Notes under the pieces: model-generated
The model's database searches: none
What the model was told of the DNA's origin: nothing
What the model saw: the letters and a program-made list of their open reading frames with translations, nothing else
Virus record (IMG/VR): IMGVR_UViG_3300044655_000670
Coordinates: 1 to 25,502 of that record
Source of the DNA: a virus
DNA length: 25,502 nt
Direction: 5' to 3' (one strand)
Program-made: the position numbers and the translations under genes
In this document: positions 1 to 13,932 of the stretch, in pieces
Numbering within the stretch: position 1 is the first letter of the stretch
Layout of the letters: every line of letters begins with the position of its first letter

Positions 1-859
1 TGGAGGCGTCCCTAAGGTGCCTAGGAGCGCGTCTAAGCCCCGAAAAGGGGCGGAGGTGGCATTATGGCACCTGACCGACTGGCAGGGCGCAAAACGCACG
101 ACAACGTACAACAGCCAGGTCATGCGTGACCGGGTGCTCAGGTTCACCGACAAGGCCCACAAAATCACGGAGGTGCAACGGGCCGACCACCCAGTGCAGA
201 ACTGCGTCATAATGTTCGGTGGGGACATGGTTGAGGGGCTGTTCAACTTCCCCGGGCAAGCGTTTGAGATCGACGCAACCCTGTTCGAGCAGTACGTCAC
301 CGTGTCCCGCCTCATCGTTGATTGCGTCACCCAGGCATTAGGCATCTACGACAAGGTCACCGTCATTGCTGAATGGGGCAACCACGGGCGTATCGGTTCC
401 AAGCGGGACAACGTCCCCAGATCCGACAACGTGGACCGAATGTGCTACTACTTGGCGGCATCCCTGCTGGAAGGCAATCCCCGCGTCGATTTCAGGGTGT
501 CCGGCGAGGACATCCAGCGCGTGGAAATAGGGAACTACCGTGCCTTGTTGATTCATGGGGACGAGATTGGGCGAAACGGCTTTGCCAGCCCAATGACGAT
601 TGTGAACCACGCAAACCGTTGGCGCTCGGGTGCCTACCCATGGGAGTTCCGCGACGTCTATGTGGGGCACTATCACACCCACGCCGAATGGCCCATGGCG
701 AACGGGGAAGGCAGCGTGTTCCAGACTGGGAGCACTGAGTCAGACAACCGTTACGCTGGGGTCATGTTGGCAGCTGCGTCGACACCGTCCCAACGGCTCC
801 ATTTCGTGGACCCGACGGCGGGCCGTGTCACCGCTGGATACAAGGTGTGGCTGGACTAA
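1..859 (+). CDS. Metallophosphoesterase (5'-truncated by window edge)
   Basis: This is the 3' part of the metallophosphoesterase gene, which is complete at 14830-15834. The frame is open from base 2, and an in-frame ATG at 17 is not the true start because the second copy shows another 48 or more codons upstream. It carries the core motifs GGDMVEG, WGNHGR, IHGDEIG and GHYHTH of the calcineurin-like fold. It differs from the second copy at about 41 bases and at no amino acid. Its stop overlaps the next gene's ATG (TAATG at 857-861). See the full-length copy for functional reasoning. Confidence 0.9.
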   Translation, partial: GGVPKVPRSASKPRKGAEVALWHLTDWQGAKRTTTYNSQVMRDRVLRFTDKAHKITEVQRADHPVQNCVIMFGGDMVEGLFNFPGQAFEIDATLFEQYVTVSRLIVDCVTQALGIYDKVTVIAEWGNHGRIGSKRDNVPRSDNVDRMCYYLAASLLEGNPRVDFRVSGEDIQRVEIGNYRALLIHGDEIGRNGFASPMTIVNHANRWRSGAYPWEFRDVYVGHYHTHAEWPMANGEGSVFQTGSTESDNRYAGVMLAAASTPSQRLHFVDPTAGRVTAGYKVWLD

Positions 860-1125
860 TGGACGTCGTGAAGGTGCTGTGGGCTGATGCCCACGCCGGC
901 GACGGCGGCTGGCAAGAGCTCGACGACTACCAGGACGACGGCGAAGTGCTCGTCCACACCGTCGGCTTCCGTGTAGATCCAGGGCAGCCGTCCTACAAGA
1001 TTGGGCATATCACCGTGTGGCAAAGCCTGTCAGGGCGGGACGGCATCCACCCGTTCCACATCCCCGTTGACATGGTGCGCCACATTGTCATCTTGTGTTG
1101 CGTGGATTCTCTGTTAGATTCCTAG
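859..1125 (+). CDS. Hypothetical protein, 88 aa
   Basis: I do not recognise a family. The start ATG overlaps the stop of the metallophosphoesterase gene (TAATG), implying translational coupling and a shared transcript. The protein is acidic in its first half (around residues 14-33, many D/E with GDGG and DDYQDD) and ends in a hydrophobic stretch containing adjacent cysteines (ILCCVD). Fourteen substitutions separate the two copies of this gene, all silent, so the protein is real and under strong constraint. It is the last gene before the GC hairpin at 1154-1197. A role with the phosphoesterase is inferred from position only. Confidence 0.75.
   Translation: MDVVKVLWADAHAGDGGWQELDDYQDDGEVLVHTVGFRVDPGQPSYKIGHITVWQSLSGRDGIHPFHIPVDMVRHIVILCCVDSLLDS
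1093..1120 (+). promoter_or_regulatory. Possible sigma70-type promoter
   Basis: TTGTGT (1093-1098) is followed after 16 bases by TAGATT (1115-1120), inside the 3' end of the 88-aa gene. The spacing is plausible, and it lies upstream of the accessory operon beginning at 1260. Neither box is a perfect consensus match. If it is used, the GC hairpin at 1154-1197 would lie in its leader. Confidence 0.3.
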
Positions 1126-1153
1126 GCACGGCGATGTTTCTCCCGCCGAGGCT

Positions 1154-1197
1154 CCCCCGGGCGGCACGGTTTCCCCCTTTCCAGGTCCGCCCGGGGG
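1154..1197 (+). terminator. GC-rich hairpin, likely terminator or leader attenuator
   Basis: CCCCCGGGCGG (1154-1164) and CCGCCCGGGGG (1187-1197) are perfect 11-bp inverted arms around a 22-base loop, followed directly by TTTG. It sits in the 134-bp gap between the 88-aa gene and the zinc-ribbon gene. It would end transcription from the late region, or attenuate a transcript from the candidate promoter at 1093-1120. The short T tract suits an actinobacterial L-shaped terminator better than a classic U-tract one. Confidence 0.65.
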
Positions 1198-1259
1198 TTT
1201 GCCGCATCCACCACCCGACCAGACAAGTTCTGTATGTTGACACCCTGAAAGGGGACACA

Positions 1260-1472
1260 ATGGACACTGACAACGTGTACAGTCTCCCGCTCTGTCAACT
1301 GTGCGGGATGGTGTATGGACGCGAACGAGATCTCATGGCTGATTACGTTTCTCACGAGAACCGTGGCGAGGGGGGAAGCCGAGACGGACATACTTGTGCG
1401 TCTTGTAGCGAAACTCTCCGCCGCGCTGAGAGCATCGCAAAGCACCCCAGCAACCGGGGGCTGACCGATTAG
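1260..1472 (+). CDS. Small zinc-ribbon-like protein, 70 aa
   Basis: The ATG at 1260 has a good ribosome site (AAAGGGGA, a few bases upstream). Two CxxC knuckles (C12/C15 and C46/C49) are separated by about 30 mostly polar residues, the pattern of a small zinc-binding domain. No specific family is recognised. It is the first gene after the GC hairpin and so probably the first of the accessory operon. A DNA- or RNA-binding regulatory role is plausible for a short zinc ribbon in this position but is inference. Confidence 0.7.
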   Translation: MDTDNVYSLPLCQLCGMVYGRERDLMADYVSHENRGEGGSRDGHTCASCSETLRRAESIAKHPSNRGLTD

Positions 1473-1482
1473 GCGTCGAGCG

Positions 1483-1890
1483 GTGCTGTTCGCAGTGACC
1501 GCCACAATCGCCGCATTGGGGCCTGTAAGCCCCGCAGACGCGACTTGGAACCATCCGCTACCCAAAGACTGGTACGAGGCTTTGGCGCGCTGTGAGACCG
1601 GCCTAAACGTCAAGCACCGAACCCGCACCTATGTGACCGCGTTCGGGATGACCCGCCACGCGTTCAGCTTGTACGCCGACACCCACCCCAGCCGCGCCCA
1701 CACCCTCACGTTCGCCCAACAAGCCCGAGTAGTGGACCGTCTGGCATGGTTCGGGCACACCGAAAACGGACGCAAACAGTGGCCCGTCGGACCGTGGGGG
1801 TGGGGATGCTTGAAAAACACCCCGAAACTGCGTATGGTCCTGTGCCGAAGCACGCACCCAAGGGTGCAGAAATGGAAAAGGGGATGCTAA
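1483..1890 (+). CDS. Secreted Rpf/transglycosylase-like protein
   Basis: From the GTG at 1483 the protein is 135 aa. It begins with a hydrophobic segment (residues 1-18) ending in PADA, a typical signal-peptidase I site. The mature part starts TWNHPLPKDWYEALARCETG. WY-ALARCE-G with E38, then an F/G-rich stretch and a C-terminal PWGWGC motif, match the resuscitation-promoting-factor/lysozyme-like domain of actinobacteria, in which this Glu is catalytic. It would cleave peptidoglycan outside the membrane. The start is uncertain: an in-frame ATT at 1468, overlapping the previous stop, would add five residues (start, R, R, A, V) and give a textbook n-region. The 25-aa membrane peptide follows with no gap. 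Confidence 0.75.
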   Translation: MLFAVTATIAALGPVSPADATWNHPLPKDWYEALARCETGLNVKHRTRTYVTAFGMTRHAFSLYADTHPSRAHTLTFAQQARVVDRLAWFGHTENGRKQWPVGPWGWGCLKNTPKLRMVLCRSTHPRVQKWKRGC

Positions 1891-1968
1891 ATGGATGACA
1901 CACAGCTCGCTATAGTGCTGATCACCGCCGCATGGATTTTGTGGTGGGTAGGGAACCAGTACAAGTAA
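1891..1968 (+). CDS. 25-aa single-span membrane peptide
   Basis: The ATG abuts the stop of the Rpf-like gene, and AAAAGGGGA just upstream is a strong ribosome site. The peptide is MDDTQLAI... with a continuous hydrophobic segment (about residues 6-20, rich in I, L, V and W) and a polar NQYK tail. That predicts one membrane span with the acidic N terminus and basic C terminus on opposite sides. Its position next to a secreted muralytic enzyme suggests a lysis or membrane role. It is too short for homology by eye. Confidence 0.55.
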   Translation: MDDTQLAIVLITAAWILWWVGNQYK

Positions 1969-1978
1969 GGGGAAACCA

Positions 1979-2185
1979 ATGCTGACCAACACACCGACCA
2001 TTGCGAGCCTGGCTGCGCAACTGAAAATGCGGGGCGAAATGCTTGACGCGTTCGGCCCGACCGCAGACGGCGAACTCATGCGCCTCGCAGGGGCCACACT
2101 GATTGAGTTTGAGCAGCTCATGGGCAAGCTTGTCCACCTGGAGGCCGAGGTCCGCCGCCTTGAGCGCGAAATCCACCATGCTTGA
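1979..2185 (+). CDS. Coiled-coil hypothetical protein, 68 aa
   Basis: The ATG at 1979 follows AAGGGGA, with good spacing. The protein is all-helical in appearance. The last 30 residues (FEQLMGKLVHLEAEVRRLER region) show heptad-like L/V/E/R spacing typical of a coiled coil. The stop overlaps the next start by eight bases (ATGCTTGA), so it is translationally coupled to the ssDNA-binding candidate. No family is recognised. It may act as an oligomerising partner of that protein, judged from coupling only. Confidence 0.65.
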   Translation: MLTNTPTIASLAAQLKMRGEMLDAFGPTADGELMRLAGATLIEFEQLMGKLVHLEAEVRRLEREIHHA

Positions 2186-2696
2186 GAACTACGAGACAGT
2201 CGCCGAACGGCTTGCCCGCTGGCTTGACATGGAGCACGACGGCCAGCCCCGCGTCATCACTCATTTGGTCAGCGAACCAGGCACCGACATCTGCGTGTTC
2301 CGCGCCGAACTGTGGATTGACGGCACCCTGATCTCAACCGGATGGGCCGAAGAAGTGCGAGGGCAAGGCAATGTCAACAAGACATCACATCTGGAGAACT
2401 GCGAATCGAGCGCTCTCGGACGCGCGTTGGCTAATGCGGGTCTGGCTGGTTCGGACCCGTCTAAGCGTCCAAGCCGGGAGGAGATGTCTAAGGTGCAACG
2501 AACTGCGCCTATGGGGTCTGACACACGGCCGTTGCAAGGCGCCGCCACCGACAAACAAATCGGGTTGCTCAAGAGCCTTTACAAGGGTGCCGGGAAGATT
2601 CCGCCAGCAAACATCAACGAGTTGTCAAAGGCTGAGGCATCCCGACTGATTGAGGACATGAAGAACCAGGCCACCACCGACGAGGAACCGTTCTAA
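2178..2696 (+). CDS. Putative ssDNA-binding/annealing protein, 172 aa
   Basis: ATG 2178 is chosen because it overlaps the upstream stop (ATGCTTGA). Residues 40-92 hold the block GWAEEVRGQGNVNKTS followed by LENCESSALGRALANAGL. I associate this signature with phage recombination/ssDNA-annealing proteins often annotated as Erf- or SSAP-like; the assignment is from memory. A polar linker follows (93-122). The C-terminal helical part (ATDKQIGLLKSLY to EASRLIEDM) is typical of the same proteins. The protein ends in TTDEEPF, resembling the acidic DDDIPF-type tip of bacterial SSB that recruits partners. It is probably the only recombination/replication accessory factor here, beside a VRR-NUC nuclease. 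Confidence 0.7.
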   Translation: MLENYETVAERLARWLDMEHDGQPRVITHLVSEPGTDICVFRAELWIDGTLISTGWAEEVRGQGNVNKTSHLENCESSALGRALANAGLAGSDPSKRPSREEMSKVQRTAPMGSDTRPLQGAATDKQIGLLKSLYKGAGKIPPANINELSKAEASRLIEDMKNQATTDEEPF

Positions 2697-2938
2697 TGGG
2701 AAACGAACTCGACCGGAACCTGCGTGAATGGGCTGACGCCATGATGAACTACCACGGCCCAACAGTGCCCCCGGTGCACCACAACGAATGCCGCCTGTAT
2801 GTCTGCCACCGCCACTGTGAGGTGCTGTGGACCGAAATCATGCAACAGGTCGGTGAAAGCCTGCGTTGGGTGGTTGACGACATGAACGCAGGCAACGCCA
2901 ACCCGGAGCACGTCATCAGGGAGGGCCGCGATGACTGA
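2696..2938 (+). CDS. Cys/His-rich hypothetical protein, 80 aa
   Basis: The start overlaps the preceding stop (TAATG) and the stop overlaps the next start (ATGACTGA), so it is locked between the ssDNA-binding candidate and the nuclease. A cluster H28, H29, C32, C37, H38, H40, C41 could bind zinc. The rest appears helical and acidic. No family is recognised. Its place in a recombination cassette suggests a nucleic-acid role, but this is inference. Confidence 0.65.
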   Translation: MGNELDRNLREWADAMMNYHGPTVPPVHHNECRLYVCHRHCEVLWTEIMQQVGESLRWVVDDMNAGNANPEHVIREGRDD

Positions 2939-3254
2939 GCGCATTCCCGACGCGTCCGAGAAGATGTTTCAGGAGAAGGTCATCAAGCTCGCCAAAACCG
3001 CTGGCTGGCTGGTATTCCACACCCCCCCGTATTCGCCCAGGCACGGCGTCTGGAGATCCGCAGGCAAAGGCTTCCCAGACCTGTGCCTCACCCACTTGGG
3101 CAAGCGCCGCACCATCTTCGCTGAGCTGAAAACCGAGAAGGGCAAAATGTCAAAGGAGCAAGAGGATTGGGGTGTCGCCCTGATTGCGTCCGGTGCCGAA
3201 TGGTATCTGTGGCGCCCCTCCGACATGGACGACATCACAAAGGTGCTGTGGTGA
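2931..3254 (+). CDS. VRR-NUC domain nuclease, 107 aa
   Basis: The whole protein is one VRR-NUC-type PD-(D/E)xK domain. It has an N-terminal helix (EKMFQEKVIKLAKTAGW), then GKGFPDLCL with catalytic D50, then TIFAELKTEKG with E65 and K67, then KEQEDWGVALIASGAEWYLWRPSD, the usual ending of the family. Phage VRR-NUC proteins are stand-alone structure-selective nucleases, proposed to act on branched DNA during recombination or before packaging. The start is the ATG in the ATGACTGA overlap. It is followed by a GTGA-coupled membrane peptide. Confidence 0.88.
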   Translation: MTERIPDASEKMFQEKVIKLAKTAGWLVFHTPPYSPRHGVWRSAGKGFPDLCLTHLGKRRTIFAELKTEKGKMSKEQEDWGVALIASGAEWYLWRPSDMDDITKVLW

Positions 3255-3316
3255 CGGCCTGGGTTGCGTTCCTGTCGAGCGTGGCCATCATCATCATTGC
3301 TCTGCGCTGGGGCTAA
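3251..3316 (+). CDS. 21-aa membrane peptide
   Basis: A GTG start overlaps the nuclease stop (GTGA). The translation is a short n-region (MTAW), a hydrophobic core with four consecutive isoleucines (residues 5-17) and an RWG end, so one membrane span is predicted. The ribosome site is weak and expression would depend on translational coupling. It is the last frame before the structured non-coding segment. Confidence 0.4.
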   Translation: MTAWVAFLSSVAIIIIALRWG

Positions 3317-3613
3317 CCCAGCCCAACACAACTGATCCACGCATGTGACGTTCCCCGGTTGCACGGGGCGGGTCTTACACTCGGGAACGAGGGTAGAGCC
3401 CCACGCCTTCGGGCAGGGGTGCAGCGTATGAACGACACAAACACGAATGGCGACCGTCCCACACGAGTGAACATCCGGCGGCCAAGGAGACAAACCTAAA
3501 CAGCGGGGGGACTGCGACCCACCGACCCGACCCGCACAACCGAGGCGCAAGCCCCCCGGGGGGCGACGCGCAATGGGGGGATGCCCTACACTCCCAACAC
3601 AGGAGAACACACA
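3317..3613. other. Structured non-coding segment; packaging-site candidate
   Basis: No convincing gene is present in these 297 bases. Visible structure includes: GTTCCC (3350-3355) and GGGAAC (3383-3388) arms enclosing a tight CCCCG-GTTGCA-CGGGG hairpin (3353-3368). Next is a CCCC..GCC-TTCG-GGC.GGGG stem with a UUCG-type tetraloop (3399-3419). Last is a perfect 14-bp GC palindrome GCCCCCCGGGGGGC (3551-3564) just before the packaging genes. The segment is C-rich on the + strand. A cos or pac site, or a replication origin, is the likeliest function. This is inferred from position (immediately before HNH-terminase) and structure. Confidence 0.5.
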
Positions 3614-3939
3614 ATGCCCAAACGCACAAGCGACCCCACCTACCTACGCAACCGAGCCAGCATCCTCGCCGGCTCACCCCTCTGCCATTGGTGCGGCAAC
3701 AACCCAGCCACCGAAGCAGACCACCTCATCGAACACGACAGAGGCGGCACCGACGACCTCGACAACCTCGTCCCCTCATGCCGGCCCTGCAACGCCAGAC
3801 GCGGCCAAGCCTACCTCACCCGCCGAAACCAACTGACCCGCCTCCGCCGAGAGCAAGCAGTCACCCAAAACGGCACCGAAATCGGTTTTTTTCACGACCC
3901 GTCCCGCCCCCGAGCCCCTGCAGGGAGGATATCTTTTAG
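3614..3939 (+). CDS. HNH endonuclease, stand-alone form by -1 shift (108 aa)
   Basis: Reading runs in frame from ATG 3614 through 3892, then shifts -1 at T TTT TTT and continues TCA CGA CCC ... to TAG at 3937-3939. The resulting tail (SRPVPPPSPCREDIF) is short and proline-rich, like tails I recall from small phage HNH proteins. The stop is immediately followed by the terminase ribosome site. This product exists if the slip is used or if the true run is not seven T. It is presented as an alternative to the through-frame. Confidence 0.45.
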
Positions 3940-5359
3940 GAAGGGGGAGGGTGACCAAGTGAGTACGAGTAGCTCGGATCAGAACGAACTGGCGCTGACC
4001 GGTCGGGAGCAGCCCAGACTGGAGTCGGCCTGGGTGGGGGGGGACTCGTTTGGGGGTCAGGTCGCGGGGTGGGCTGCCACTCATTTGATGCCTTTGATGC
4101 CGTGGCAGGTGCATGCGGTGACGGGGATGCTTGAGCATGACGGTGGCCGGTTGCTGCGCCGCGAGGCGTTGGTCAGTACGGCTCGTCAGCAGGGTAAGTC
4201 GGTCCTGTTGACGTCGATGATTGGGTGGTGGGTGACTGAGCACGCGGCCCGGTTGGGGCGGCCCCAGCATGTGCTGTCTACAGCTAACCAACTGGACCGG
4301 GCGGAGGCCATCTTTAGTGCGCTCGCGCCGGTGCTGGTTGAGAGGTTCGGGGGGAAGCAGCTGCAGGCCATTGGGCGCAAGAAGGTGACGATGCCGGACG
4401 GCTCGACGTGGGAGATCCGCGCTGCTAGTGCCCGGTTGCACGGTGGTTCGTATGACCTGATCGTGGTGGACGAGCTGTGGAACATTGCCCCGTCAGTCAT
4501 GGACGACGCGCTCAGGCCGTCAATGATTGCCCGACCCAACCCGTTGCTGGCCTGTTTCTCAACAGCGGGTGACATGTCCAGTCACAGCATGATTAACATG
4601 CGGGAACAAGCCCTGGCAGACATTGACGCCGGCAACCAGACCGACACCTACTTTGCGGAGTGGTCGATGCCGATGGGGGCCGACCCGAAAGATGAGCGGT
4701 GGTGGGGGTGGGCCAACCCAGCCCTCGGCACCACCGTCACCATTGAGGCGCTCAGGGCGGCGTCCAAAAAGGAGTCCTTTTTGCGGGCCCACCTGAACCA
4801 GTGGATCACCACCCGGGGCGCGATGCTGGACCCTGGGGTGTGGGACTCGTGCGCCACCACTAGGGCAATGCCGGGCGGTGGTGTCCTGGCTATTGACTCG
4901 TCGGTGGATGAGGCCCGCTATGTCGGCACCCGCGCCACTATGTGCGATGGGCGAGTCATGGTGGACGTTGAGTTCGTGGTGGATTCGGAGGACGCAATGT
5001 GGGCGGAAGTGGAACGCGTCATGATGGACAAGACCGTCAACCTGGCTGTGACTCCGACCCTTGAGCTGCACCTGCCACCGGAATACGCCCGCCGCTGCGG
5101 CCTTGTCGGCTACGGCGAACTACTCAAGTTCACCAGCCTTGTGCGCTCAATGATCCAAGAAGGGCGGGTCATCCACACCAATGCCCGCACCTTGTCGGAG
5201 CACATGAACCGTGCCGTCGGCGTCAAGACCGCGCAAGGGTATGTGCTGTCCAGCCAAAAATCCCCCGGGCCAATCGAGGTGGCACGAACCGCGGTGTGGG
5301 CCATCGCTTTGGTGAGCCGTCCACAAACAAAACAAAAACCCATGCTTGTTGTATCGTGA
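3614..5359 (+). CDS. HNH endonuclease in frame with large terminase (581 aa)
   Basis: ATG 3614 has AGGAG eight bases upstream; an ATG at 3581 lacks a comparable site. Residues 20-65 form an HNH domain with zinc knuckles C24/C27 and C56/C59, the D36-H37 pair in EADHL, and DNL and NARRG motifs. HNH proteins beside terminases are required for, or stimulate, cos cleavage in several phages. After a linker the same frame enters TerL (residues 116-581). There is no stop between them. However, a T7 run at 3886-3892 sits just where a -1 shift would end HNH at TAG 3937-3939. Separate HNH and TerL products are therefore likely, and a covalent fusion is possible. Confidence 0.85.
   Translation: MPKRTSDPTYLRNRASILAGSPLCHWCGNNPATEADHLIEHDRGGTDDLDNLVPSCRPCNARRGQAYLTRRNQLTRLRREQAVTQNGTEIGFFHDPSRPRAPAGRISFRKGEGDQVSTSSSDQNELALTGREQPRLESAWVGGDSFGGQVAGWAATHLMPLMPWQVHAVTGMLEHDGGRLLRREALVSTARQQGKSVLLTSMIGWWVTEHAARLGRPQHVLSTANQLDRAEAIFSALAPVLVERFGGKQLQAIGRKKVTMPDGSTWEIRAASARLHGGSYDLIVVDELWNIAPSVMDDALRPSMIARPNPLLACFSTAGDMSSHSMINMREQALADIDAGNQTDTYFAEWSMPMGADPKDERWWGWANPALGTTVTIEALRAASKKESFLRAHLNQWITTRGAMLDPGVWDSCATTRAMPGGGVLAIDSSVDEARYVGTRATMCDGRVMVDVEFVVDSEDAMWAEVERVMMDKTVNLAVTPTLELHLPPEYARRCGLVGYGELLKFTSLVRSMIQEGRVIHTNARTLSEHMNRAVGVKTAQGYVLSSQKSPGPIEVARTAVWAIALVSRPQTKQKPMLVVS
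3886..3892 (+). other. Slippery heptamer T TTT TTT in the HNH-TerL frame
   Basis: In the reading frame GGT TTT TTT CAC the seven T residues form a canonical X XXY YYZ -1 slip site. The -1 frame meets a TAG 45 bases later, directly in front of the TerL Shine-Dalgarno. A homopolymer of this length is also a common sequencing-error spot. Confidence 0.45.
3959..5359 (+). CDS. terL: Terminase large subunit (internal GTG start, 466 aa)
   Basis: GTG 3959 is preceded by AGGAAGGGGGAGG (3938-3950), the strongest ribosome site in the window, with eight-base spacing. Numbered in the 581-aa frame: WQ at 164-165 for adenine contact, Walker A-like STARQQGKS (188-196), Walker B DLIVVDE with D286/E287, a coupling motif around FSTAGD (315-320), and an RNase H-like nuclease domain starting at AIDSS (D428), with further acidic residues after 450. 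It pumps DNA into proheads through the portal and cuts concatemers. The length of 466 aa fits the family as a separate protein. Third-base usage changes abruptly at this start (G/T here, C/A in HNH). Confidence 0.93.
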   Translation: MSTSSSDQNELALTGREQPRLESAWVGGDSFGGQVAGWAATHLMPLMPWQVHAVTGMLEHDGGRLLRREALVSTARQQGKSVLLTSMIGWWVTEHAARLGRPQHVLSTANQLDRAEAIFSALAPVLVERFGGKQLQAIGRKKVTMPDGSTWEIRAASARLHGGSYDLIVVDELWNIAPSVMDDALRPSMIARPNPLLACFSTAGDMSSHSMINMREQALADIDAGNQTDTYFAEWSMPMGADPKDERWWGWANPALGTTVTIEALRAASKKESFLRAHLNQWITTRGAMLDPGVWDSCATTRAMPGGGVLAIDSSVDEARYVGTRATMCDGRVMVDVEFVVDSEDAMWAEVERVMMDKTVNLAVTPTLELHLPPEYARRCGLVGYGELLKFTSLVRSMIQEGRVIHTNARTLSEHMNRAVGVKTAQGYVLSSQKSPGPIEVARTAVWAIALVSRPQTKQKPMLVVS

Positions 5360-5412
5360 TTGTGTAGGGTAAGTGGGCGAGTCCCGTGTCGGGCGGGGCT
5401 TGCACAAATCTC

Positions 5413-6525
5413 ATGGCACTGTTCACGCGCAAAGAAACCAAAGCCCAGATCTCCCCGGTGGAGTCCCAGGTCCGTGCCGCTGTCGGCGGGTACAACCCGA
5501 ACGCGTCAGGTGTCAGCCTTATCGGGCAGTACTACACCTACCAGGAAGGCGAGGCCCGCAACCGTGCAATGCAGGTGCCCGCAATCAGCCGTGCCCGTGA
5601 CCTTCACGCCAACGTCCTGTCAGCGATGCCGTTGCGTATGTACCGCGAACGCTGGAACGACAGCAGCCGCGAAATGGAATCCGAGTACCTGGCACCCCGG
5701 TCATGGCTGCGCCGCCCCGACCCGTCCATCAGCTACGAAACCCTCATCTCGTGGACGTTCGACGACCTGTTCTTCTACGGCCGCGCATTCTGGTACGTCA
5801 CCAGCCGCACCCAGGACGGCTACCCCGCATCATTCACACGCCTCCCGACCGGGTCAATCACAACCCCCGATCAAGCTGGCCCCGTCTGGTACGCACCCAG
5901 CAACGAGCTGTACTTCAACGGTGAAATGCTCGACCCTATCAACGTGGTCCAGTTCATCGGCTCAACCCAAGGACTGATCTACTCGTCCGAACAAAACATC
6001 GCCACCGCCCTGCGTATCGAGGACGCCCGACTCCGCAACGCTGCCTCGTCCATACCGTCCGGCATCCTCCGCCAGGTCGGTGGCGAACCCCTTAGCGCAC
6101 AGGAACTAGCGGACCTGTCGGCAGCGTTCAACGCGGCCCGCGCCTCCAACCAGACCGCAGCCCTCAACGAGTTCCTGACCTACGAACCAACAAACGCCAC
6201 CCCCGACAAAATGCTGCTGATCGAGTCGGCACAGTTTTCGGCTTTGCAGATGGCCCAGATTGCGAACATTCCGCCCTACCTGTTGGGTGTCCCCACCGGG
6301 TCATACGCCTACACAAACAGCCGCGAGTCGCGCTGGGATCTGTGGTTGTACGGCACGAAGGCATACGCCGAAGTGATTGCGTCCACCCTGTCCGCCAACA
6401 GCATCCTGCCGAACGGCACGTTCGTCGAGTTTGATTATGAGGCGTATCTCGGCGAAATGGACGACGCCAACACAAGCCGCGAAATGGTCGACGTGGAAGA
6501 AAACACCCAGGAGGATTTGGCATGA
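5413..6525 (+). CDS. Portal protein (HK97-like), 370 aa
   Basis: The portal is the dodecameric ring at the capsid vertex through which TerL packages DNA. The family signature is the early block YQEGEARNRAMQVPAISRAR and LHANVLSAMPLRMY, followed by YGRAFWYV, SNELYFNGEMLDPINVVQF, and the late QMAQIANIPPYLLGVPTGSYAYTNS motif typical of HK97-type portals. At 370 aa it is on the short side, in keeping with a minimal genome. ATG 5413 (MALFTRKE) resembles usual portal starts; a GTG at 5386 would add nine residues. The stop overlaps the next start (ATGA), so it is coupled to the protease-capsid gene. Confidence 0.93.
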   Translation: MALFTRKETKAQISPVESQVRAAVGGYNPNASGVSLIGQYYTYQEGEARNRAMQVPAISRARDLHANVLSAMPLRMYRERWNDSSREMESEYLAPRSWLRRPDPSISYETLISWTFDDLFFYGRAFWYVTSRTQDGYPASFTRLPTGSITTPDQAGPVWYAPSNELYFNGEMLDPINVVQFIGSTQGLIYSSEQNIATALRIEDARLRNAASSIPSGILRQVGGEPLSAQELADLSAAFNAARASNQTAALNEFLTYEPTNATPDKMLLIESAQFSALQMAQIANIPPYLLGVPTGSYAYTNSRESRWDLWLYGTKAYAEVIASTLSANSILPNGTFVEFDYEAYLGEMDDANTSREMVDVEENTQEDLA

Positions 6526-8114
6526 TCCGTTTCACATCCGATTCTGTCAGCGTCAAGGCTGAGCAAGGCGAAACAGGGGAGCGCCGCATTGACGCCATCG
6601 CTGTCCCGTACAACGTGTTTGCCACCGTCTCAGGCGGTCAGGAAGTCATGTTCAAGCCCGGGTCGCTGCCGGTCGACGGCAAAGCCCCCCGCGTGTTCAT
6701 GTACCACGACTCCAGCAAGCCCGTCGGCATTGTCGCTGAACGTGTCGACACCGACGAAGCCATGCTTGCCTCCATGCGGATTAGCCGCACCGCGCTCGGC
6801 GACGAGGCACTGGTCCTGGCAGCCGACGGCGTCATGGACGTGTCCGTCGGCGTCAACCCCATCGAGTACACCGAAGACAAGCAGGGCCGAATTACGGTCA
6901 CCAAAGCTGAGTGGATGGAACTAAGTTTGGTCCCCATTCCCGCGTTCGCTGGTGCTACAATCACCGAAGTAGCCGCACAAGCGGCGTCAGATCCCGACGA
7001 ATCCAACCCCCAAGAAACTCCAGAGGAGCACCCCGTGGAAGCAACACCCGCACAGGCAGAGGTCGTCGAGGCCGCAGCCATTCCGACCCCCGCACTGCCG
7101 GCACAGCCGAAGCGCAAGTTCGCCATGCCGTCCGCAGGTGAGTACCTCGCCGCGTTTCACATCGGTGGCGACACGTTCCGCAAGGTCAACGAGGCATTCG
7201 TCGAGGCCGCCAAGGACCGCCAGTCCGCACTGCAGGCCGCCGCAGGCGACGTGCTCACGACCGACACCCCCGGTCTTCTCCCGGTGCCGGTCCTCGGCCC
7301 CGTGTTCCAGGACCTCAACTACGTCCGCCCCGTCGTCGCCGCAGTCGGCGCCCGCGCGATGCCCGACGGTGGCAACCAGAAGACGTTCATTCGTCCGACG
7401 TGGACCACGCACACCAGCGTCGCCGCCCAGTCCCCGGAACTGAACCCCGTGTCGGCCACCACGCCGGTGATCGCGTCCAACGTCGTCAGCAAGACCACCC
7501 TTGCCGGTCAGGTCACCCTGTCGGTGCAGGACATCGACTTCACCAGCCCGGCCGCCATGGAAATCATCCTGCGTGACCTCGCCTCGCAGTACCTCCTGGC
7601 TTCGGACAACGTCGCCGCTGACGCCATCACCTCAGGTGCATCCGCCTCAGGCTCCACCTGGACGTTCAACACGACCGACCCGTCCACGCTGATCACCGCG
7701 CTGTACGACGCCGCCACCGACATCCTCAGCGCCAGCAACTTCCTCCCCGACCACGTCTTCGTTTCGCCGAACGTGTGGAAGCTCCTCGGACAGCAGCTTG
7801 ACGCCGACAAGCGCCCCGTGTTCCCGTACGCCGGCGCCGCCGGTCTCATGGGCGTCAACGGTGCAGGTGCCGCCAACATCACCCAGGCCAACACGTTCAA
7901 CCCGTTCGGCCTTAACCTGGTGGTGGACCGCAACTTCGCCAACAACACGATGGTCGTCGCCAAGGGTTCCGCCATCGAGTTCTACGAGCAGATCCGCGGC
8001 CTCATGTCCGTGGAGGCGCCGTCCACGCTGGGCCGCACCTTCTCGTACTACGGCTACGTCGCCACGTTCATCGCAGACAGCGACCTCGTCAAGTCCATCA
8101 CCGTCTCGCCCTGA
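6522..8114 (+). CDS. Prohead protease-major capsid fusion, 530 aa
   Basis: Residues 1-150 are an HK97-type (U35) prohead protease: RRIDAIAVPYN, FKPGSL, MYHDSSKPVG with catalytic H62, MDVSVGVNP with S108, and the conserved MELSLVPIPAFAGA. Residues 150-200 are an A/P/E-rich linker matching the delta/scaffold region. Residues about 205-530 are an HK97-fold major capsid protein (LLPVPVLGPVFQDL, N-arm to E-loop TFIRPTW, NPFGLNLVVD, VEAPSTLGRTFSYYGY). The fusion would assemble as scaffold, cut itself and mature. Capsid-protease fusions are known in some small actinophages. An in-frame GTG at 7035 with its own ribosome site could also yield capsid without protease. Confidence 0.93.
   Translation: MIRFTSDSVSVKAEQGETGERRIDAIAVPYNVFATVSGGQEVMFKPGSLPVDGKAPRVFMYHDSSKPVGIVAERVDTDEAMLASMRISRTALGDEALVLAADGVMDVSVGVNPIEYTEDKQGRITVTKAEWMELSLVPIPAFAGATITEVAAQAASDPDESNPQETPEEHPVEATPAQAEVVEAAAIPTPALPAQPKRKFAMPSAGEYLAAFHIGGDTFRKVNEAFVEAAKDRQSALQAAAGDVLTTDTPGLLPVPVLGPVFQDLNYVRPVVAAVGARAMPDGGNQKTFIRPTWTTHTSVAAQSPELNPVSATTPVIASNVVSKTTLAGQVTLSVQDIDFTSPAAMEIILRDLASQYLLASDNVAADAITSGASASGSTWTFNTTDPSTLITALYDAATDILSASNFLPDHVFVSPNVWKLLGQQLDADKRPVFPYAGAAGLMGVNGAGAANITQANTFNPFGLNLVVDRNFANNTMVVAKGSAIEFYEQIRGLMSVEAPSTLGRTFSYYGYVATFIADSDLVKSITVSP
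7022..7037 (+). promoter_or_regulatory. Internal ribosome site and GTG for capsid-only product
   Basis: AGAGGAG (7022-7028) lies six bases before GTG 7035-7037, which is in frame with the protease-capsid gene (codon 172). Translation from here would give a 359-aa protein comprising the end of the linker and the whole capsid domain. GAG/GAA-rich coding sequence can produce such a match by chance. Confidence 0.4.
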
Positions 8115-8135
8115 TCCGGGCCTGAGGGACTAGTC

Positions 8136-8777
8136 ATGTCGGAGATTGCGTACGTCGTCCGGGCCATGCGTCTGGACGACTACGCAGTCATCCAACTACT
8201 GACCAACGTTGACGTTACCGTCAGCCAAGAAATCGAAATAGCCGGTGTCGGCGCAGGCTTCAACGACTCAGGCGTCATCGTCACGGCGCTGCCCCAGTAC
8301 GAGTTCATCGGGGTGGACAACCTTGGCGAACTGCAGTTCAACTACGAGAACCCGATACCGAATCAGGTTCTGTACCAGAACCCGGGCACAAACGTCACCT
8401 ACTACGCAGTTGATCCGTACGGAACGCTGGAATGGAACCCTGTTTGCACATGGATTACCAGCACCAACGTGACCGAATGGCTGGGTATTTCGGTCGCCAC
8501 TGCCAATGACACCGCGTTCATCACGAAGTGCGTGTCGGCTGCCAACGCGTTTGCGTATCGGCGCAGACAGGAATCGGGCTACTTGACCGATGAACTGCAC
8601 ACCAGCCCCGGCGGCGACGTAACCCTTGGAACCATCATGTACGCCGCACTGCTGTACAGGGAACGCGGATCCGCAGACTCGTTCGCATCGTTTGACTCGA
8701 TGGGGACGTTCCCTGTGCCGTCAGCCCTTGGGCGCATCCTCCAGTTGCTGGGTGTCGGCCGTCCGCAGGTTGCGTAA
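8136..8777 (+). CDS. Head-tail adaptor (connector), 213 aa
   Basis: It lies immediately after the capsid gene, with TGAGGGA upstream of the ATG. The second half has the usual connector pattern: WLGISVATANDTAFITKCVSAANAFAYRRR helices, then VTLGTIMYAALLYRERGSADSFASFD. This corresponds to the gp6/gp15-like adaptors that sit under the portal and bridge to the tail. The first 100 residues are an additional beta-rich domain with no family I can name (many N, G and Y). The stop overlaps the next start (TAATG). Confidence 0.75.
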   Translation: MSEIAYVVRAMRLDDYAVIQLLTNVDVTVSQEIEIAGVGAGFNDSGVIVTALPQYEFIGVDNLGELQFNYENPIPNQVLYQNPGTNVTYYAVDPYGTLEWNPVCTWITSTNVTEWLGISVATANDTAFITKCVSAANAFAYRRRQESGYLTDELHTSPGGDVTLGTIMYAALLYRERGSADSFASFDSMGTFPVPSALGRILQLLGVGRPQVA

Positions 8778-9139
8778 TGGCTGCCACCGGCATCCTGTGG
8801 GACGCGGTCAACGCCACCAAAACCGCGCTAGTGGCCCTGAACCTCGGCTACGAGGTTGTCACGGACCCACGCAACGCCCGCCCCATGACCCTGTTTCTGG
8901 AGCTTCCCACCGTCGAGGCGTTCACCTACAACGTCGGCGACATCACCCTCGTTATTCGCATCTGCGCCCCACCGCCCGGCAACCAGGACGCATCTGACTG
9001 GTTGCTGACACAAGCAGATAAAATAATGAACAGTTCAATAGCCGTGACAGACCTCCGCCCGTCTGTCATGATTATTGGCGGCGGTCAGGAACTGCCGACA
9101 TACGACCTCACCGTGCGGGTAGCCGTACGGCGCAACTAG
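8777..9139 (+). CDS. Tail terminator-like protein, 120 aa
   Basis: The position between the head-tail adaptor and major tail protein, the size, and the alpha-beta pattern fit the tail terminator/tail completion family that caps the tail tube: N-terminal helix, VVTDPRNARPMTLFLELP, VGDITLVIRICAPP, and a final strand YDLTVRVAVRRN. The start is fixed by the TAATG overlap. No motif is decisive, so the call rests mainly on gene order; a second head-tail stopper is the alternative. Confidence 0.6.
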   Translation: MAATGILWDAVNATKTALVALNLGYEVVTDPRNARPMTLFLELPTVEAFTYNVGDITLVIRICAPPPGNQDASDWLLTQADKIMNSSIAVTDLRPSVMIIGGGQELPTYDLTVRVAVRRN

Positions 9140-9153
9140 CAAAAGGACAACCC

Positions 9154-9579
9154 ATGGCCACCAGCACATTCCTTTCCAACGCGACGGTGAACATCACCCA
9201 GGGCGTCACCACGACCGACCTGTCGGATCAGTGCCGCAGCGTCACCATCACCGTCGGCCAGGACCCGCTGGAGTCAACCGCCATGGGCGACACCGGGCAC
9301 CGTTTTGTCGGCGGCCTTCAGAGCGTCGAGGTCACGCTCGAGATGTTCCTGTCGTACGGCGCATCCGAGGTGGAAGGCGTCCTGTCGTCCTGTGTCGGCA
9401 CCGGCACCACCGTCCTGACCATCAGCCCGTCCGGAACCACAGAGTCGGCCACCAACCCCGAGTACGTCATCACCAACGCCATGCTGGAGAACTTCACCCC
9501 CATCGCCAGCACCGTCGGCGAGCTTGCCATGGTCACCGCCACGTTTACCGGCGGCACCTGGGTCCGCGACGTCACCTGA
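9154..9579 (+). CDS. Major tail protein, 141 aa
   Basis: AAAAGGAC precedes the ATG. The protein begins MATSTFLSNATVNITQGVTTTDLSDQCRS in pattern, with alternating beta strands throughout, no helices of note, and many T, V and G. The small size and location just before the tail assembly chaperone fit the tube-forming subunit. SVTITVG, HRFVGGLQSVEVTLEMFLSYG and ATFTGGTW are typical of beta-sandwich tail tube proteins. It polymerises around the tape measure. Confidence 0.8.
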   Translation: MATSTFLSNATVNITQGVTTTDLSDQCRSVTITVGQDPLESTAMGDTGHRFVGGLQSVEVTLEMFLSYGASEVEGVLSSCVGTGTTVLTISPSGTTESATNPEYVITNAMLENFTPIASTVGELAMVTATFTGGTWVRDVT

Positions 9580-9600
9580 TCCCCAACCTAAGGAGAAACC

Positions 9601-9864
9601 ATGCAACTGAACCTGCATGTCACCACCAACGACGGCGACGACTACACAGTCACTACCAACCTGTTCGTCGTTGTTGCGTGGGAACGCAAATACAAGCGGA
9701 AAGCGTCCGAACTGTCAGCCGGCATCGGCGTCGAGGACCTGGCGTTTATGGCGTACGAATCCTGCAAACAGTCAGGCATCACCGTTCCCGCCGTGTTTGA
9801 CGACTACATCAAGAAGCTCGCCGCTATCGAGGTTGTGGGGCAGGAACCCGAAAACCCTTCCTGA
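9601..9864 (+). CDS. Tail assembly chaperone, short form, 87 aa
   Basis: The gene lies between the major tail protein and the tail completion/tape measure genes, with AAGGAGA upstream of the ATG. Its pattern (FVVVAWERKYKRKASELSAG, AFMAYESCKQSG, DDYIKKLAAIEVVGQEPENPS) fits the gpG-like chaperone that coats the tape measure. It ends at TGA 9862-9864, just after an A AAC CCT slip site. The long form is listed separately. Confidence 0.85.
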   Translation: MQLNLHVTTNDGDDYTVTTNLFVVVAWERKYKRKASELSAGIGVEDLAFMAYESCKQSGITVPAVFDDYIKKLAAIEVVGQEPENPS

Positions 9865-9998
9865 AAGGCTCGTACCACTACTCGCTAGCGGTGGTGCTGG
9901 TTTCCACCGGGTACTGGCCTCCACAGATACCTTTTGAGGGGCGCGACCTGGCGACAGTGGTTACAATCTTGAACGAGCAAGCAAGGAAACAGCGATGA
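9601..9998 (+). CDS. Tail assembly chaperone, -1 frameshift form, about 132 aa
   Basis: Translation slips -1 at A AAC CCT (9852-9858) and continues in the other frame from TTC at 9858 to TGA at 9996-9998. That adds 46 residues (FLKGSYHYSLAVVLV ... TVVTILNEQARKQR). The -1 frame is blocked upstream by a TGA near 9798, so the slip must fall between there and 9862, and the heptamer is in that window with the right phase. The added part looks like a real chaperone T domain (YWPPQIPF, then a final helix). Its stop overlaps the next start (ATGA at 9995-9998), as expected for a true gene end. ACCAC/GTGGT arms (9874-9895) around CGCTAGCG could form a stimulatory hairpin. Confidence 0.85.
9852..9858 (+). 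other. A AAC CCT slippery heptamer for -1 frameshift
   Basis: In phase as GAA AAC CCT TCC TGA. After a one-base slip the two tRNAs re-pair with AAA and CCC. It lies six codon positions or fewer before the zero-frame stop. A possible hairpin begins about 16 bases downstream. Confidence 0.75.
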
Positions 9999-10486
9999 CT
10001 GCCAGCATGAACCTAGAAATTGGTGGTGCCAAAGACGCAATCAAAGCTTTGCGCAGAATTGACCCCGAACTGCGGAAACAGTTCAACAGGGACGCCGCCC
10101 AGATCATGAAACCTGCGTTGGACCGCATCAAAGCGTCGTACCCAGAACAACTGCCGTCAGGCATGCAACGCGCATGGAAAATGCGTTCAGGGTTCGCGCA
10201 ATTCCCGTACGACGTCAAGAAAATGCGTCGAGGCGTCAAGTTCAAGATTGACACCCGCCGCAAGTCAGCCACCGTCATGCGTTTGGTGCAGACCGAACCG
10301 TCAGCTGTGTTCATTGAGTTTGTGGGCCGTAAACAAATGCCTCGAATCTCTCAGGTGTTGACTCGGTTCTATGGACCGCCCGGACGTTTCATGTGGCCAG
10401 CCGCCGAAAAAGCAATTCCCGACGTCATTGACGAATTAAAAAAGCGTGTCTTTAAGGCCACGCGTGACGTACAGGACGCCCTCTAA
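9995..10486 (+). CDS. HK97 gp10-like tail completion/structural protein, 163 aa
   Basis: The N-terminal IGGAKDAIKALRRIDPELRKQF helix, a basic middle, SAVFIEFVGRK, and a closing MWPAAEKAIPDVIDELKKRV helix match the general plan of HK97 gp10-like neck/tail proteins. The family usually lies before the major tail protein; here it is between the chaperone and the tape measure, which is unusual. It is coupled to both neighbours (ATGA at 9995; stop TAA overlapping the next ATG at 10486). An alternative is a small minor tail protein of unknown role. Confidence 0.55.
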   Translation: MTASMNLEIGGAKDAIKALRRIDPELRKQFNRDAAQIMKPALDRIKASYPEQLPSGMQRAWKMRSGFAQFPYDVKKMRRGVKFKIDTRRKSATVMRLVQTEPSAVFIEFVGRKQMPRISQVLTRFYGPPGRFMWPAAEKAIPDVIDELKKRVFKATRDVQDAL

Positions 10487-11913
10487 TGGCAATAACTATC
10501 CCCATCATTTCCGAGTACGACGGCAAGGGCGTCAAAAAGGCGATTCACGAGTTCAAGCAGCTGGAAACCACGGGCGAGAAAGCCCAGTTTGCGTTGAAGA
10601 AAGCGGCGCTCCCGGCAGCTGCCGCCATGGGTGCGTTGACTGTTGCCATGGGGGACGCGGTCAAGGCCGCTATTGACGACGAGAAATCCCAGCAGATGCT
10701 TGCCCGCCAGTTGAAGGCCACGACCGGGGCAACCGATGACCAAATCAAGAGCGTTGAGAAGTACATCAGCGCCCAGGGCCGAAATCTCGGCATCACAGAC
10801 GATCAGCTGCGCCCCGCGCTCGCGGGGCTGGTCCGTGTCACTAAGGATGTCAATGAGGCGCAGAACGCTGCCAGCCTCGCCATGGACATTGCCGCCGCCA
10901 AGGGTGTCAGCCTGGAAACGGTCAGCAAAGCGCTGGAACGCGCCTACGGGGGCAACACGGCAGCGCTAGCCAAGCTCGACCCGTCGGTGCGCGACATGAT
11001 CAAGGGCGGCGCCACCCTTGAGGAAGTGTTTGCCAAGATGTCAAGCACGTTCGGGGGGGCCGCCAAGGAAGCGAGCAATACCGCTGCGGGCGGGTTTGCC
11101 AAACTCAAGCTGTCTCTTGATGAGACAAAGGAGTCCATTGGGGCGGCACTGTTGCCGGTGCTTCAGAGGGTGCTGCCGTATCTGCAGAAGGCTGCGGATT
11201 GGGCGCAGGACAACCCGAAAGCGTTTACCATCATTGCGGGCACTATTGGCGCGGTCGCTACTGCCATCCTTGCCGTCAACGCGGCAATGGCCCTCAACCC
11301 GTTCGGCCTCATTGCCGTCGGTATCGCCGCCCTCGTCACCGGCATCACAGTTGCGTATACAAAATTTGAGGGTTTCCGCAATGTCGTCCGCAACGTCGTA
11401 AACGGGCTGGCAACCTATTTCGAGTTTATGGCTAACGCATGGATCAAAGCCATCAACCTTGTCATTCGTGGTATCAACATTGTCAACCCTGGCAAGGATG
11501 TGCCCAGCATTCCGGCAGTGTCGCTGGGGCGCCTTGGCGGTGAGGGCGGTGGCGGCACAGGCAGCGCCCGCCAGTTCGAGTCGCCGGTGTCGTCGTCTGG
11601 GTCAACCGCTGCGGTGGTGCCCAGCCTTGGTGCGGGGGTTGTGGCTGGCGCAGCGTCGCGGGCAACAGGGGGTGGCGGTGCAGCTGCGGCTGCGCCCCGC
11701 CTGACCGGTCCCGACGGCTATGTCGGCCCTGGCTATGGCGAAATCCCCATCTCCATGTTGAGCCTGAACCAGATTGACCCGTCTATCGGTGGTACTCAGG
11801 GGCAAACCATTGTGAACGTGCAGGTGGATGGTGGTGATCCGCAGTCGGTGGTGGACGCTATCCAGCGGTGGACCCGCCAGAACGGGCCGTTGCCGATTGC
11901 GGTGACGTACTAG
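10486..11913 (+). CDS. Tape measure protein, 475 aa
   Basis: This sets tail length and enters the cell envelope with the DNA. Visible parts: N-terminal helical region (residues 1-60) with KKAIHEFKQLETTG; a long A/K/E-rich helical region to about 240; hydrophobic membrane-type segments at about 247-291 (FTIIAGTIGAVATAILAV and LIAVGIAALVTGITVAY); a G/S/A-rich linker (about 352-410); and a C-terminal strand region. At 475 aa it is very short for the family. At roughly 1.5 angstrom per residue it predicts a tail of about 70 nm. The start is fixed by the TAATG overlap with the gp10-like gene. Confidence 0.92.
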   Translation: MAITIPIISEYDGKGVKKAIHEFKQLETTGEKAQFALKKAALPAAAAMGALTVAMGDAVKAAIDDEKSQQMLARQLKATTGATDDQIKSVEKYISAQGRNLGITDDQLRPALAGLVRVTKDVNEAQNAASLAMDIAAAKGVSLETVSKALERAYGGNTAALAKLDPSVRDMIKGGATLEEVFAKMSSTFGGAAKEASNTAAGGFAKLKLSLDETKESIGAALLPVLQRVLPYLQKAADWAQDNPKAFTIIAGTIGAVATAILAVNAAMALNPFGLIAVGIAALVTGITVAYTKFEGFRNVVRNVVNGLATYFEFMANAWIKAINLVIRGINIVNPGKDVPSIPAVSLGRLGGEGGGGTGSARQFESPVSSSGSTAAVVPSLGAGVVAGAASRATGGGGAAAAAPRLTGPDGYVGPGYGEIPISMLSLNQIDPSIGGTQGQTIVNVQVDGGDPQSVVDAIQRWTRQNGPLPIAVTY

Positions 11914-11916
11914 GCC

Positions 11917-12978
11917 ATGGCTATCCCGTACTGGACGGCTGAACTACCGGGCCCCGTCTCAATTACGAACATTCAGACGGTGACGGTCACATCGGGGCGT
12001 CGAGTCCTGACCGACTTCTACGCTGCAGGCCGTGCCACCATCAACGGACGCCGCCCGGACCTGTTGCCGACCATCAACATTGGCGACACTGTCACTCTGC
12101 GCTTGTACAACCCGAACACGACCCCAACGTCGTTGGTGGTTCTGCCGTTGCGGGTAGCAGACCTACAGATTACTTATGGCGCGGTGCCCGCCATGGACAC
12201 CTGGACGCTCTCGCTGGAGGACGCGTTCGCCACATTGGGGCGGGGCCGCATCACCCGCACCTGGTCCGCTGGCACCACAACCGAAGTTGCCTTTGAGGAT
12301 GTTTGCACCGACCTCGGGTTGAGTTACAACAGTGTCGTGTCGCAGGCACCGAAGACGTTGTCAGCGACCACTGTGACCGACGAAAACGCGTTGAACGTCA
12401 TGCAAACCATTGTCAACACGGAGCAGGGGTTGCTGTACGCATACAGCACAGGGTTGGCGTTGTATACGCGGGGCTGGCAGCAATACACCACGTTTTACGC
12501 GTTCGGGGATGCTGGCGGTGCCAACACGACGTACCAGCAGGTCCAGTTCATGTCGATGGCTGACAACTACGCCACCTACGTTCTGGTCACCATCAACGGG
12601 GGCACCCCAACGGTGGCGGGCACGGGGGACTATTCGTACCGGCTCGACACTTACGCATTGAACAGCTCTGAGGCGTTGTCGGTGGCGCAGTATGTTCAGG
12701 GGGCGTTGCAGGACACGACGGCGGTGCCGAACACGTTGTCGGTGCTGTTGAACACGGAAACCTCGACCCGGACGCTGGACGCGATCAACAACCAGTCGGG
12801 CGTGACCCTGACGTTGCGGGGTCAGACGTACACCGCAAACATTATTGGTTTTACGATTAGCAGCACCCCTGAGCAGACCAGGGTGACGTTCCAGTTGGCG
12901 GGGACTGAGCAATACAACTATTTGGTGTTGAACAACAGTGTTTACGGCACCCTCGATAACAACAGGTTAGGATTCTGA
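11917..12978 (+). CDS. Minor tail protein (tail tip/hub candidate), 353 aa
   Basis: It lies directly after the tape measure, where distal tail or hub proteins normally reside. Beta-rich throughout: INGRRPDLLPTINIGDTVTLRLYN suggests an OB-like or hub domain, LQITYGAVPAMDTWTLSLEDAF a hub-like segment with catalogue-typical spacing, and QTRVTFQLAGTEQYNYLVLN a closing domain. Those domain guesses are by eye. Codon style turns G/T-rich in the last third (around 12650-12980), as in the 5' half of TerL. Confidence 0.75.
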   Translation: MAIPYWTAELPGPVSITNIQTVTVTSGRRVLTDFYAAGRATINGRRPDLLPTINIGDTVTLRLYNPNTTPTSLVVLPLRVADLQITYGAVPAMDTWTLSLEDAFATLGRGRITRTWSAGTTTEVAFEDVCTDLGLSYNSVVSQAPKTLSATTVTDENALNVMQTIVNTEQGLLYAYSTGLALYTRGWQQYTTFYAFGDAGGANTTYQQVQFMSMADNYATYVLVTINGGTPTVAGTGDYSYRLDTYALNSSEALSVAQYVQGALQDTTAVPNTLSVLLNTETSTRTLDAINNQSGVTLTLRGQTYTANIIGFTISSTPEQTRVTFQLAGTEQYNYLVLNNSVYGTLDNNRLGF

Positions 12979-12980
12979 GT

Positions 12981-13553
12981 ATGGCTATCAAAACGTTTTC
13001 GGTGGGTGAGGTGTTGACTGCGTCGGATACGAACACGTTTCTGGCGAACAGCGGCCTCGTGTACGTCGCGTCCAAAACGTGGACTAGTACCACTAACGCC
13101 CAGCAAATTGATTCGTGCTTCACTAGCACCTACGACAATTACCGTTTGGTGTTGACCGCAACTAGCAACCAAAGCACCCCGGCATACATGTATTACCAAA
13201 TGGTCGACGGAACGACGGCATACGCTGGAGCGCAGTATTTTGCGAATCCGGTCTACTCGTTTACCGGTGGAGCGCCAACCGCAAACTGGAATACATTCGT
13301 CACCGTTGGGTATGCAGGCTGGATTGGGGATAACAACACCTCAATCATTTTTGACATCTCTAGCCCACAGGTAGCGGGTGCCGTCACCGTCGTCAATGGT
13401 TCGTGCGTCTCATTCGCAACATCTAACGCACTAAACGGAACCATTTATGGTTTCGTAAACCAAACGACGCAATACGAAGGAATCAAACTGGGCATGGCGG
13501 CTGGCGTCACTTGGGCTGGCACCGCGACAATTTACGGCTATCGAAAGGCTTAG
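12981..13553 (+). CDS. Minor tail/receptor-binding candidate, 190 aa
   Basis: The N terminus (MAIKTFSVGEVLTASDTNTF) is a motif shared by many phage tail-fibre and tip-associated proteins, and I regard it as diagnostic for a tail attachment module. The rest is a beta-rich, T/N/G/Y-rich domain without coiled coil, consistent with a compact jelly-roll receptor-binding head. It sits two bases after the previous minor tail gene. Most likely it is the adsorption protein of this phage, and if so the gene most likely to vary between host-range variants. Confidence 0.7.
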   Translation: MAIKTFSVGEVLTASDTNTFLANSGLVYVASKTWTSTTNAQQIDSCFTSTYDNYRLVLTATSNQSTPAYMYYQMVDGTTAYAGAQYFANPVYSFTGGAPTANWNTFVTVGYAGWIGDNNTSIIFDISSPQVAGAVTVVNGSCVSFATSNALNGTIYGFVNQTTQYEGIKLGMAAGVTWAGTATIYGYRKA

Positions 13554-13555
13554 TT

Positions 13556-13672
13556 ATGGATGACCGCTACAAAGTGTCCGTGTTTGACGTTGCAACAGGC
13601 GAAACATACGAACGCGACATGACCCCCGAAGAAATTGCCGCACTCCCCGAACCGACTGAAAGCCCAGAATGA
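13556..13672 (+). CDS. Small tail-associated protein, 38 aa
   Basis: The ATG follows the previous stop by two bases. It begins MDDRYKVSVFDVATGE and contains MTPEEIAALPEP, a motif common in short phage tail-region proteins. The stop overlaps the next ATG (ATGA at 13669-13672). No function can be assigned. Confidence 0.65.
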   Translation: MDDRYKVSVFDVATGETYERDMTPEEIAALPEPTESPE

Positions 13673-13932
13673 TCACCTCCGCGCAATACGCCGTCACCGA
13701 CACCCCCACCAAGATCGCGTCATCAGCTGTCGGGCACCGCACCGTCCACGTCGCCCCCGTCGGCAACACATCCGTGTACCTCGGCAACGCCACCGTCACC
13801 TCCACGACGGGCTACATCCTGACCAAAGCCGCGGGCCAGCACGACATCATCCTCAGCCCCGGCGACGAGCTGTACGTCGTCTGCGCCACCGGGCAAACCG
13901 AAACCGTCACCATCCTAATCAGCGAAAACTAA
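13669..13932 (+). CDS. Small beta-rich structural protein candidate, 87 aa
   Basis: Coupled to the previous gene by ATGA. The pattern (TDTPTKIASSAVGHRTVHVAPVG, NTSVYLGNATVT, GYILTKAAGQHDIILSPGDELYVVC) is that of a small beta-sandwich seen in phage structural clusters near tail genes. A virion decoration or tail-tip role is likely from position, but I cannot name a family. Confidence 0.65.
   Translation: MITSAQYAVTDTPTKIASSAVGHRTVHVAPVGNTSVYLGNATVTSTTGYILTKAAGQHDIILSPGDELYVVCATGQTETVTILISEN

Follow-up and report, generated by a model that had tools for sequence, protein, structure and literature searches.

In the HK97-type packaging system, an HNH protein (HK97 gp74) works with the large terminase subunit (TerL) in DNA packaging and cos cleavage, according to the citing text of PMC12724721 (Kala et al., 2014; Quiles-Puchalt et al., 2014). 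The two proteins are separate polypeptides in that system. Among phages with small genomes, several actinophages, including Arthrobacter AN TinoCrisci, Gordonia Coeur and Rahul, Rhodococcus RRH1, and Microbacterium EE BurtonThePup, have an HNH gene beside one genome end and TerL near the other, as in the uncultured family described here. These small-genome isolates are 14-17 kb in size. In Coeur, Rahul, RRH1, Sleepyhead, TinoCrisci, and BurtonThePup, HNH is the last gene and has its own stop before the end of the record, while TerL is a separate gene, set apart from cos by TerS or small genes. For the cluster AN phages an 11-base 3' extension has been published, with the right end CCCGCGCCACC (PMC5679792), and a 9-base 3' overhang has been published for cluster EE.

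We analyzed a DNA stretch of 25,502 nucleotides (the window; G000 in our contig set), which is the IMG/VR record IMGVR_UViG_3300044655_000670. The window contains 1.70 copies of a 14,975-b unit with 56 mismatches over 10,527 positions, which means that the record wraps 1.7 times around a phage unit of about 15 kb, similar in size to the actinophage isolates. The sequence of the HNH-TerL junction is accordingly repeated at +14,975. When the unit copies are compared, window positions 1-1070 are 94.9% identical to 14976-16045 (55 differences, both encoded proteins the same), and the remaining overlap of the two copies has 99.99% identity. The confinement of the divergence to 1-1070 indicates a second strain or a recombinant as the source of the record's 5' end. 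A nucleotide search of the phage collection with the window gave no match, and the window TerL has at most about 28% identity to isolates among the matches listed. Among GTDB genomes the sole matches were two weak ones to Weissella, so we make neither a host call nor a prophage call.

The start codon of HNH (ATG 3614) and a possible start codon of TerL (GTG 3959) share one frame on the + strand, which is open until TGA at 5357-5359. The earlier note had described HNH as running into TerL with no stop; its coordinates hold, and the same open frame is found in every junction-spanning relative. The resulting gene of 581 amino acids is a single ORF at 3614-5359, with a second copy at 18589-20334. 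It matches the PHROG terminase large subunit (E=6e-47) as well as a PHROG for HNH, and the Pfam families HNH, TerL_ATPase, and TerL_nuclease. A ribosome-binding-like AGGAGA at 3601-3606 (+ strand) precedes ATG 3614. An alternative in-frame ATG upstream, at 3581, would give 592 amino acids.

Structure prediction divides the product into two confident blocks and a flexible connection. The AlphaFold2 (AF2) model that we used, built from an alignment of 67 sequences, has an overall pLDDT of 85 (an earlier run with eight sequences scored 41). The prediction is confident for HNH up to residue 84 and for TerL from about residue 130 onward, and pLDDT falls below 50 only at residues 1-3 and 85-126. The HNH nuclease domain (residues 1-84; 3614-3865, + strand) matches the HNH structure 4h9d in the PDB, and its residues C24, C27, D36, H37, N51, C59, and N60 are invariant in 38/38 fused rows. 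Residues 85-126 (3866-3991, + strand) form a tether that is predicted to be disordered and to hold the cos site, with HNH encoded directly upstream of it. In the TerL ATPase and nuclease region (3992-5356, + strand), R191, Q192, G194, K195, D286, and E287 are present in 67/67 rows and the Walker residues are intact. The best Foldseek match of the TerL fold is HK97 TerL (6z6d, E=1e-21). The window therefore resembles the HK97 system both in the pairing of HNH with TerL and in the TerL fold.

The neighboring genes fit a packaging and head operon. The next gene encodes the portal protein (5413-6525, + strand; Pfam Phage_portal, E=2.5e-26). Downstream of it, the prohead protease and the major capsid protein are encoded as one gene of 530 amino acids (6522-8114), a capsid-protease fusion that the window shares with AN, EE, and Coeur-type isolates. 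A VRR-NUC nuclease gene, resembling Holliday junction resolvases, lies a short distance upstream of HNH at 2931-3254. Between them, directly before HNH, are about 360 nt of G- and C-rich sequence with no clear gene (3255-3613), possibly the promoter region of a late operon crossing cos. Searches of the window genes at 1-14975 with PHROGs and Pfam recognized no TerS, and the roughly 75-81 nt that separate cos from TerL leave no room for a TerS gene.

We compared the junction across relatives with respect to the fusion, the conservation of the frame, the positions of contig ends, and the absence of a 10-mer between the two gene halves. Three IMG/VR scans, using the window protein, an alignment of the HNH side, and the full alignment, yielded 195 loci. 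In profile searches, both domains were found in 63 of these, and they are in one ORF at 63/63 with no exception; a few of the 63 are the same contig fetched twice, and the relatives in these counts are not phylogenetically independent. The 51 distinct linkers range from 39 to 75 codons in length and contain no in-frame stops. The other two frames have stops in 46/51 and 48/51 linkers, and shuffled linkers have stops in 43.4 on average, with a minimum of 34. In the 75-nt segment after cos, pN/pS is 0.68 in frame 0 versus 0.77 and 0.99 in the other frames. This mild reduction suggests weak protein-level selection on the tether. As judged from the stop statistics, on which this argument rests, it is the reading frame that is conserved in the tether. 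By the same comparison the HNH-TerL fusion is real and is kept throughout the family, which favors the real fused packaging enzyme that the earlier note had offered as one of its two readings. The absence, in most relatives, of a separate TerL start codon with a ribosome site gives it further support.

Contig ends of the relatives point to a site within the tether. We consider it very probable that the junction is the cos site of a tailed phage of about 15 kb, lying inside a single gene for HNH, a disordered tether, and TerL, and that this gene is restored by end-joining and cut by its own product. In this analysis contig ends stand in for physical virion ends throughout. A contig whose TerL is 100% identical to that of the window (L002) begins exactly at 3920. 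It is one of 47 family contigs that start at the base homologous to this position, all of them on a codon boundary, in the TerL phase, and open; this count takes in six contigs at +6 relative to L139/L140, where the reference cut sat 6 nt off. Position 3920 (+ strand) is thereby the predicted first base after the cut and the left terminus, on the TerL side, of the linear genome in the virion. On the other side, the right ends of HNH-side contigs cluster at -10 (16 contigs) and -9 (three contigs) relative to the cut. Ten full-length two-ended contigs (G001, G004, G005, G006, G013, G016, G017, G018, G020, and G021) hold the TerL half from the cut and the HNH half up to -10, with the 10-mer in between absent. 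In the window this 10-mer is CCGAGCCCCT at 3910-3919 (no strand assigned), and in most spanning contigs it follows the C-rich family consensus CCCGACCCC[T/A], or CCCGCACCCT.

Other contigs retain the 10-mer or foreign sequence at the same borders. G007 and G012 have the 10-mer at both contig ends. In L028, Illumina adapter sequence (positions 1-18) is joined exactly to the first base after the cut. In L013, L024, L040, L167, L168, L179, and L188, a short, nearly all-purine, non-native tail is followed by exactly the 10-mer; the tails of L167, L168, L179, and L188 are the first 7-13 b. All of these borders are accounted for by a 10-nt 3' single-stranded overhang, which blunting would take off at both ends and which methods that tail single strands would preserve; we infer such tailing chemistry behind the purine tails. 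An overhang length of 10 nt is well supported by the family contigs, and for the window phage it is predicted from these relatives, with the left end alone seen directly (L002). With contig ends as the proxy, the genome ends of the family are thus unique and fixed at a single site, and they bear short complementary single-stranded extensions, the 10-nt gap being read from contigs rather than from DNA directly; both are features of cos-packaging tailed phages.

A few records depart from this pattern. The right-end phase of G002 and G003 (L057, L059) needs two, not one, missing bases modulo 3; overhang length may vary, and in this subclade it is possibly 11 nt. The right end of G019 (L267) runs past -10 into unrelated DNA with a stop, likely a chimeric end. 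A second over-long record, G053 (locus L190; 20,841 b), reads across its own cos, with a half gene at 13-1443 and a whole fused gene at 14823-16571.

Contigs can also break at variable sites, and the shared ends could in principle be assembly breaks caused by strain variation or repeats rather than genome ends. We regard this as very unlikely, because the ends fall on the same base in relatives of about 45-100% identity, two-ended contigs lack the 10-mer, and the borders carry adapter sequence and non-native tails. The published AN overhang is moreover close in sequence to the family 10-mer. The earlier note, which read the junction as a fused or dual-coded enzyme with a possible slip site or else as a miscalled run, missed the cos site, that is, the physical ends of the genome.

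The slip site that it proposed is a T-run on the + strand at 3886-3892, 17 nt before the predicted overhang. The run is exactly seven T, read GGT TTT TTT CAC, which puts T TTT TTT in the phase that -1 slipping requires, and the -1 frame reaches TAG at 3937-3939; both observations were confirmed. The hypothetical -1 product would be an HNH protein of 108 amino acids with the -1 peptide FFSRPVPPPSPCR, made alongside the fusion. Across relatives, an in-phase TTTTTTT occurs in 21 of the 52 distinct pre-cos segments, and a -1 slip would reach a stop in most relatives, given the 48/51 linkers with stops in that frame. However, the other 31 segments lack the in-phase TTTTTTT, so an X XXY YYZ heptamer is not conserved. 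The codon phase of the run differs between relatives (CTT TTT TCG, GTT TTT TAT, and TTT TTG), and the FF codons found there at the amino-acid level are TTT TTT in 39 cases and TTC TTT in one. The TAG is also not conserved; L046, which is near-identical to the window, reads TCG at this position. The run has 6 or 7 T in 45/52 segments, and in 49 its distance to the overhang that follows is 16-20 nt. The T-run holds its distance to cos but not its codon phase, and the frameshift is therefore unsupported.

The isolates indicate another role for the run. In cluster AN, HNH ends with NTAFFK-TAG on a T6 run; this run, GCATTTTTT, lies 22 nt before the published overhang. A T-rich tract also precedes the genome ends of Coeur and GRU3. 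The T-rich tracts before the isolate ends (AN, Coeur, and GRU3) suggest that the T-run is part of the cos region. It adjoins cos where HNH is ending, as in AN, or has already ended, as in Coeur, which counts against a function in frameshifting. We consider it very unlikely that the T TTT TTT heptamer directs programmed -1 frameshifting, and we propose that the T-run serves as a DNA element of the cos region.

Homopolymer runs are error-prone, and the earlier note had accordingly allowed that the run length was miscalled and that HNH truly ends at the TAG at 3939. The second copy of the run (18,861-18,867) lies inside the same record and is not independent evidence for its length. In L046, however, a separate contig, the same T7 is found with no TAG. 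All junction-spanning relatives are open in frame 0 at any length of the run (T5, T6, T7, or T8), and the 51 open linkers refute a general version of this explanation. A sequencing or assembly error at this position is thus extremely unlikely.

We also considered that HNH and TerL are functionally separate, with the open frame a by-product and TerL translated from its own start. The strong TerL ribosome site that the earlier note reported is present as described: AGGAAGGGGGAGG at 3938-3950 precedes GTG 3959, and together they form a possible extra internal start (3938-3961, + strand) for a TerL of 466 amino acids. This feature is mostly special to the window clade. A start codon with a sequence resembling a Shine-Dalgarno (SD) site is found in only three of the 72 distinct cos-to-TerL segments (L002, L006, and L173; the sites of L002 and L006 are similar to that of the window), whereas 53/72 lack both an ATG and a start preceded by an SD. 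Furthermore, the frame survives many length changes, which would be unnecessary for separate genes. Functional separation is accordingly very unlikely. Of the three products that the earlier note had proposed for this locus, the 581-aa fusion is supported and the 108-aa HNH protein made by slipping is not; GTG 3959 with its strong ribosome site may additionally yield free TerL in the window clade. As a point against the fused enzyme, the fused protein might still be cleaved after translation.

If the junction is a cos site within the fused gene, each virion seems to carry the gene as two halves, which are rejoined in the cell. After injection, the ends would anneal and be ligated, restoring the fused gene. 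With the DNA circular or concatemeric, translation of the fused enzyme would then begin at the HNH start and proceed across the joined cos. The enzyme would cut cos through its HNH and/or TerL nuclease center and package unit genomes, and every cut would sever the enzyme's own gene, with loss of the intact template. Such a self-severing gene is the likely, although less certain, wider reading: virions would hold two half-genes, synthesis would be licensed by end-joining, each packaging cut would remove the template as negative feedback, and the tethered HNH would replace a free HNH, and perhaps TerS, in recognizing or nicking cos. With TerS unrecognized among the scanned window genes, we conjecture that the HNH arm shares in cos recognition.

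The known systems differ from this arrangement in defined ways. In agreement with an HNH-assisted, HK97-like terminase, the family has the HK97 TerL fold with its ATPase motifs, and the HNH catalytic residues are encoded beside cos. However, the HK97 system has separate HNH, TerS, and TerL, whereas here HNH and TerL form one polypeptide, TerS was not found among the scanned window genes, and cos is within the gene. The earlier note had suggested a comparison with relatives in which HNH and TerL are separate genes; the small actinophage isolates do keep them apart. In contrast to these AN, EE, and Coeur-like phages, whose HNH gene stops short of the genome end and whose TerL is separate, HNH has no stop before the contig end in 44/44 listed HNH-side contigs. 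On the evidence of these contigs, the uncultured family lacks both the stop of HNH and the genes that separate cos from TerL in the isolates. None of the isolated phages examined, the actinophages included, has a gene across its genome ends, and full-text searches of the open-licence literature returned no report of a gene spanning cos. In Epstein-Barr virus, parts of the LMP2 (terminal protein) gene lie at both ends of the linear genome, and the gene is whole only on circularization. LMP2 is eukaryotic and intron-containing and is not an end-making enzyme, the role proposed here for HNH-TerL.

Linear contig annotation splits the terminase gene into an HNH without a stop and a TerL without a start, and such phages are therefore probably mis-annotated in viral databases. 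Contig ends offer a read-free way to map the cos overhangs of uncultured phages, and true DNA ends are also marked by the adapter sequence and non-native tails that remain in public viral contigs; these remnants could be used to map termini in bulk. For the family itself, the fusion would be a natural single-chain version of the HNH-TerL complex that cleaves cos. If the gene is self-severing, an expression or feedback switch would be expected and could be tested for, and packaging chemistry, genome circularization, and gene expression would be united in one object.
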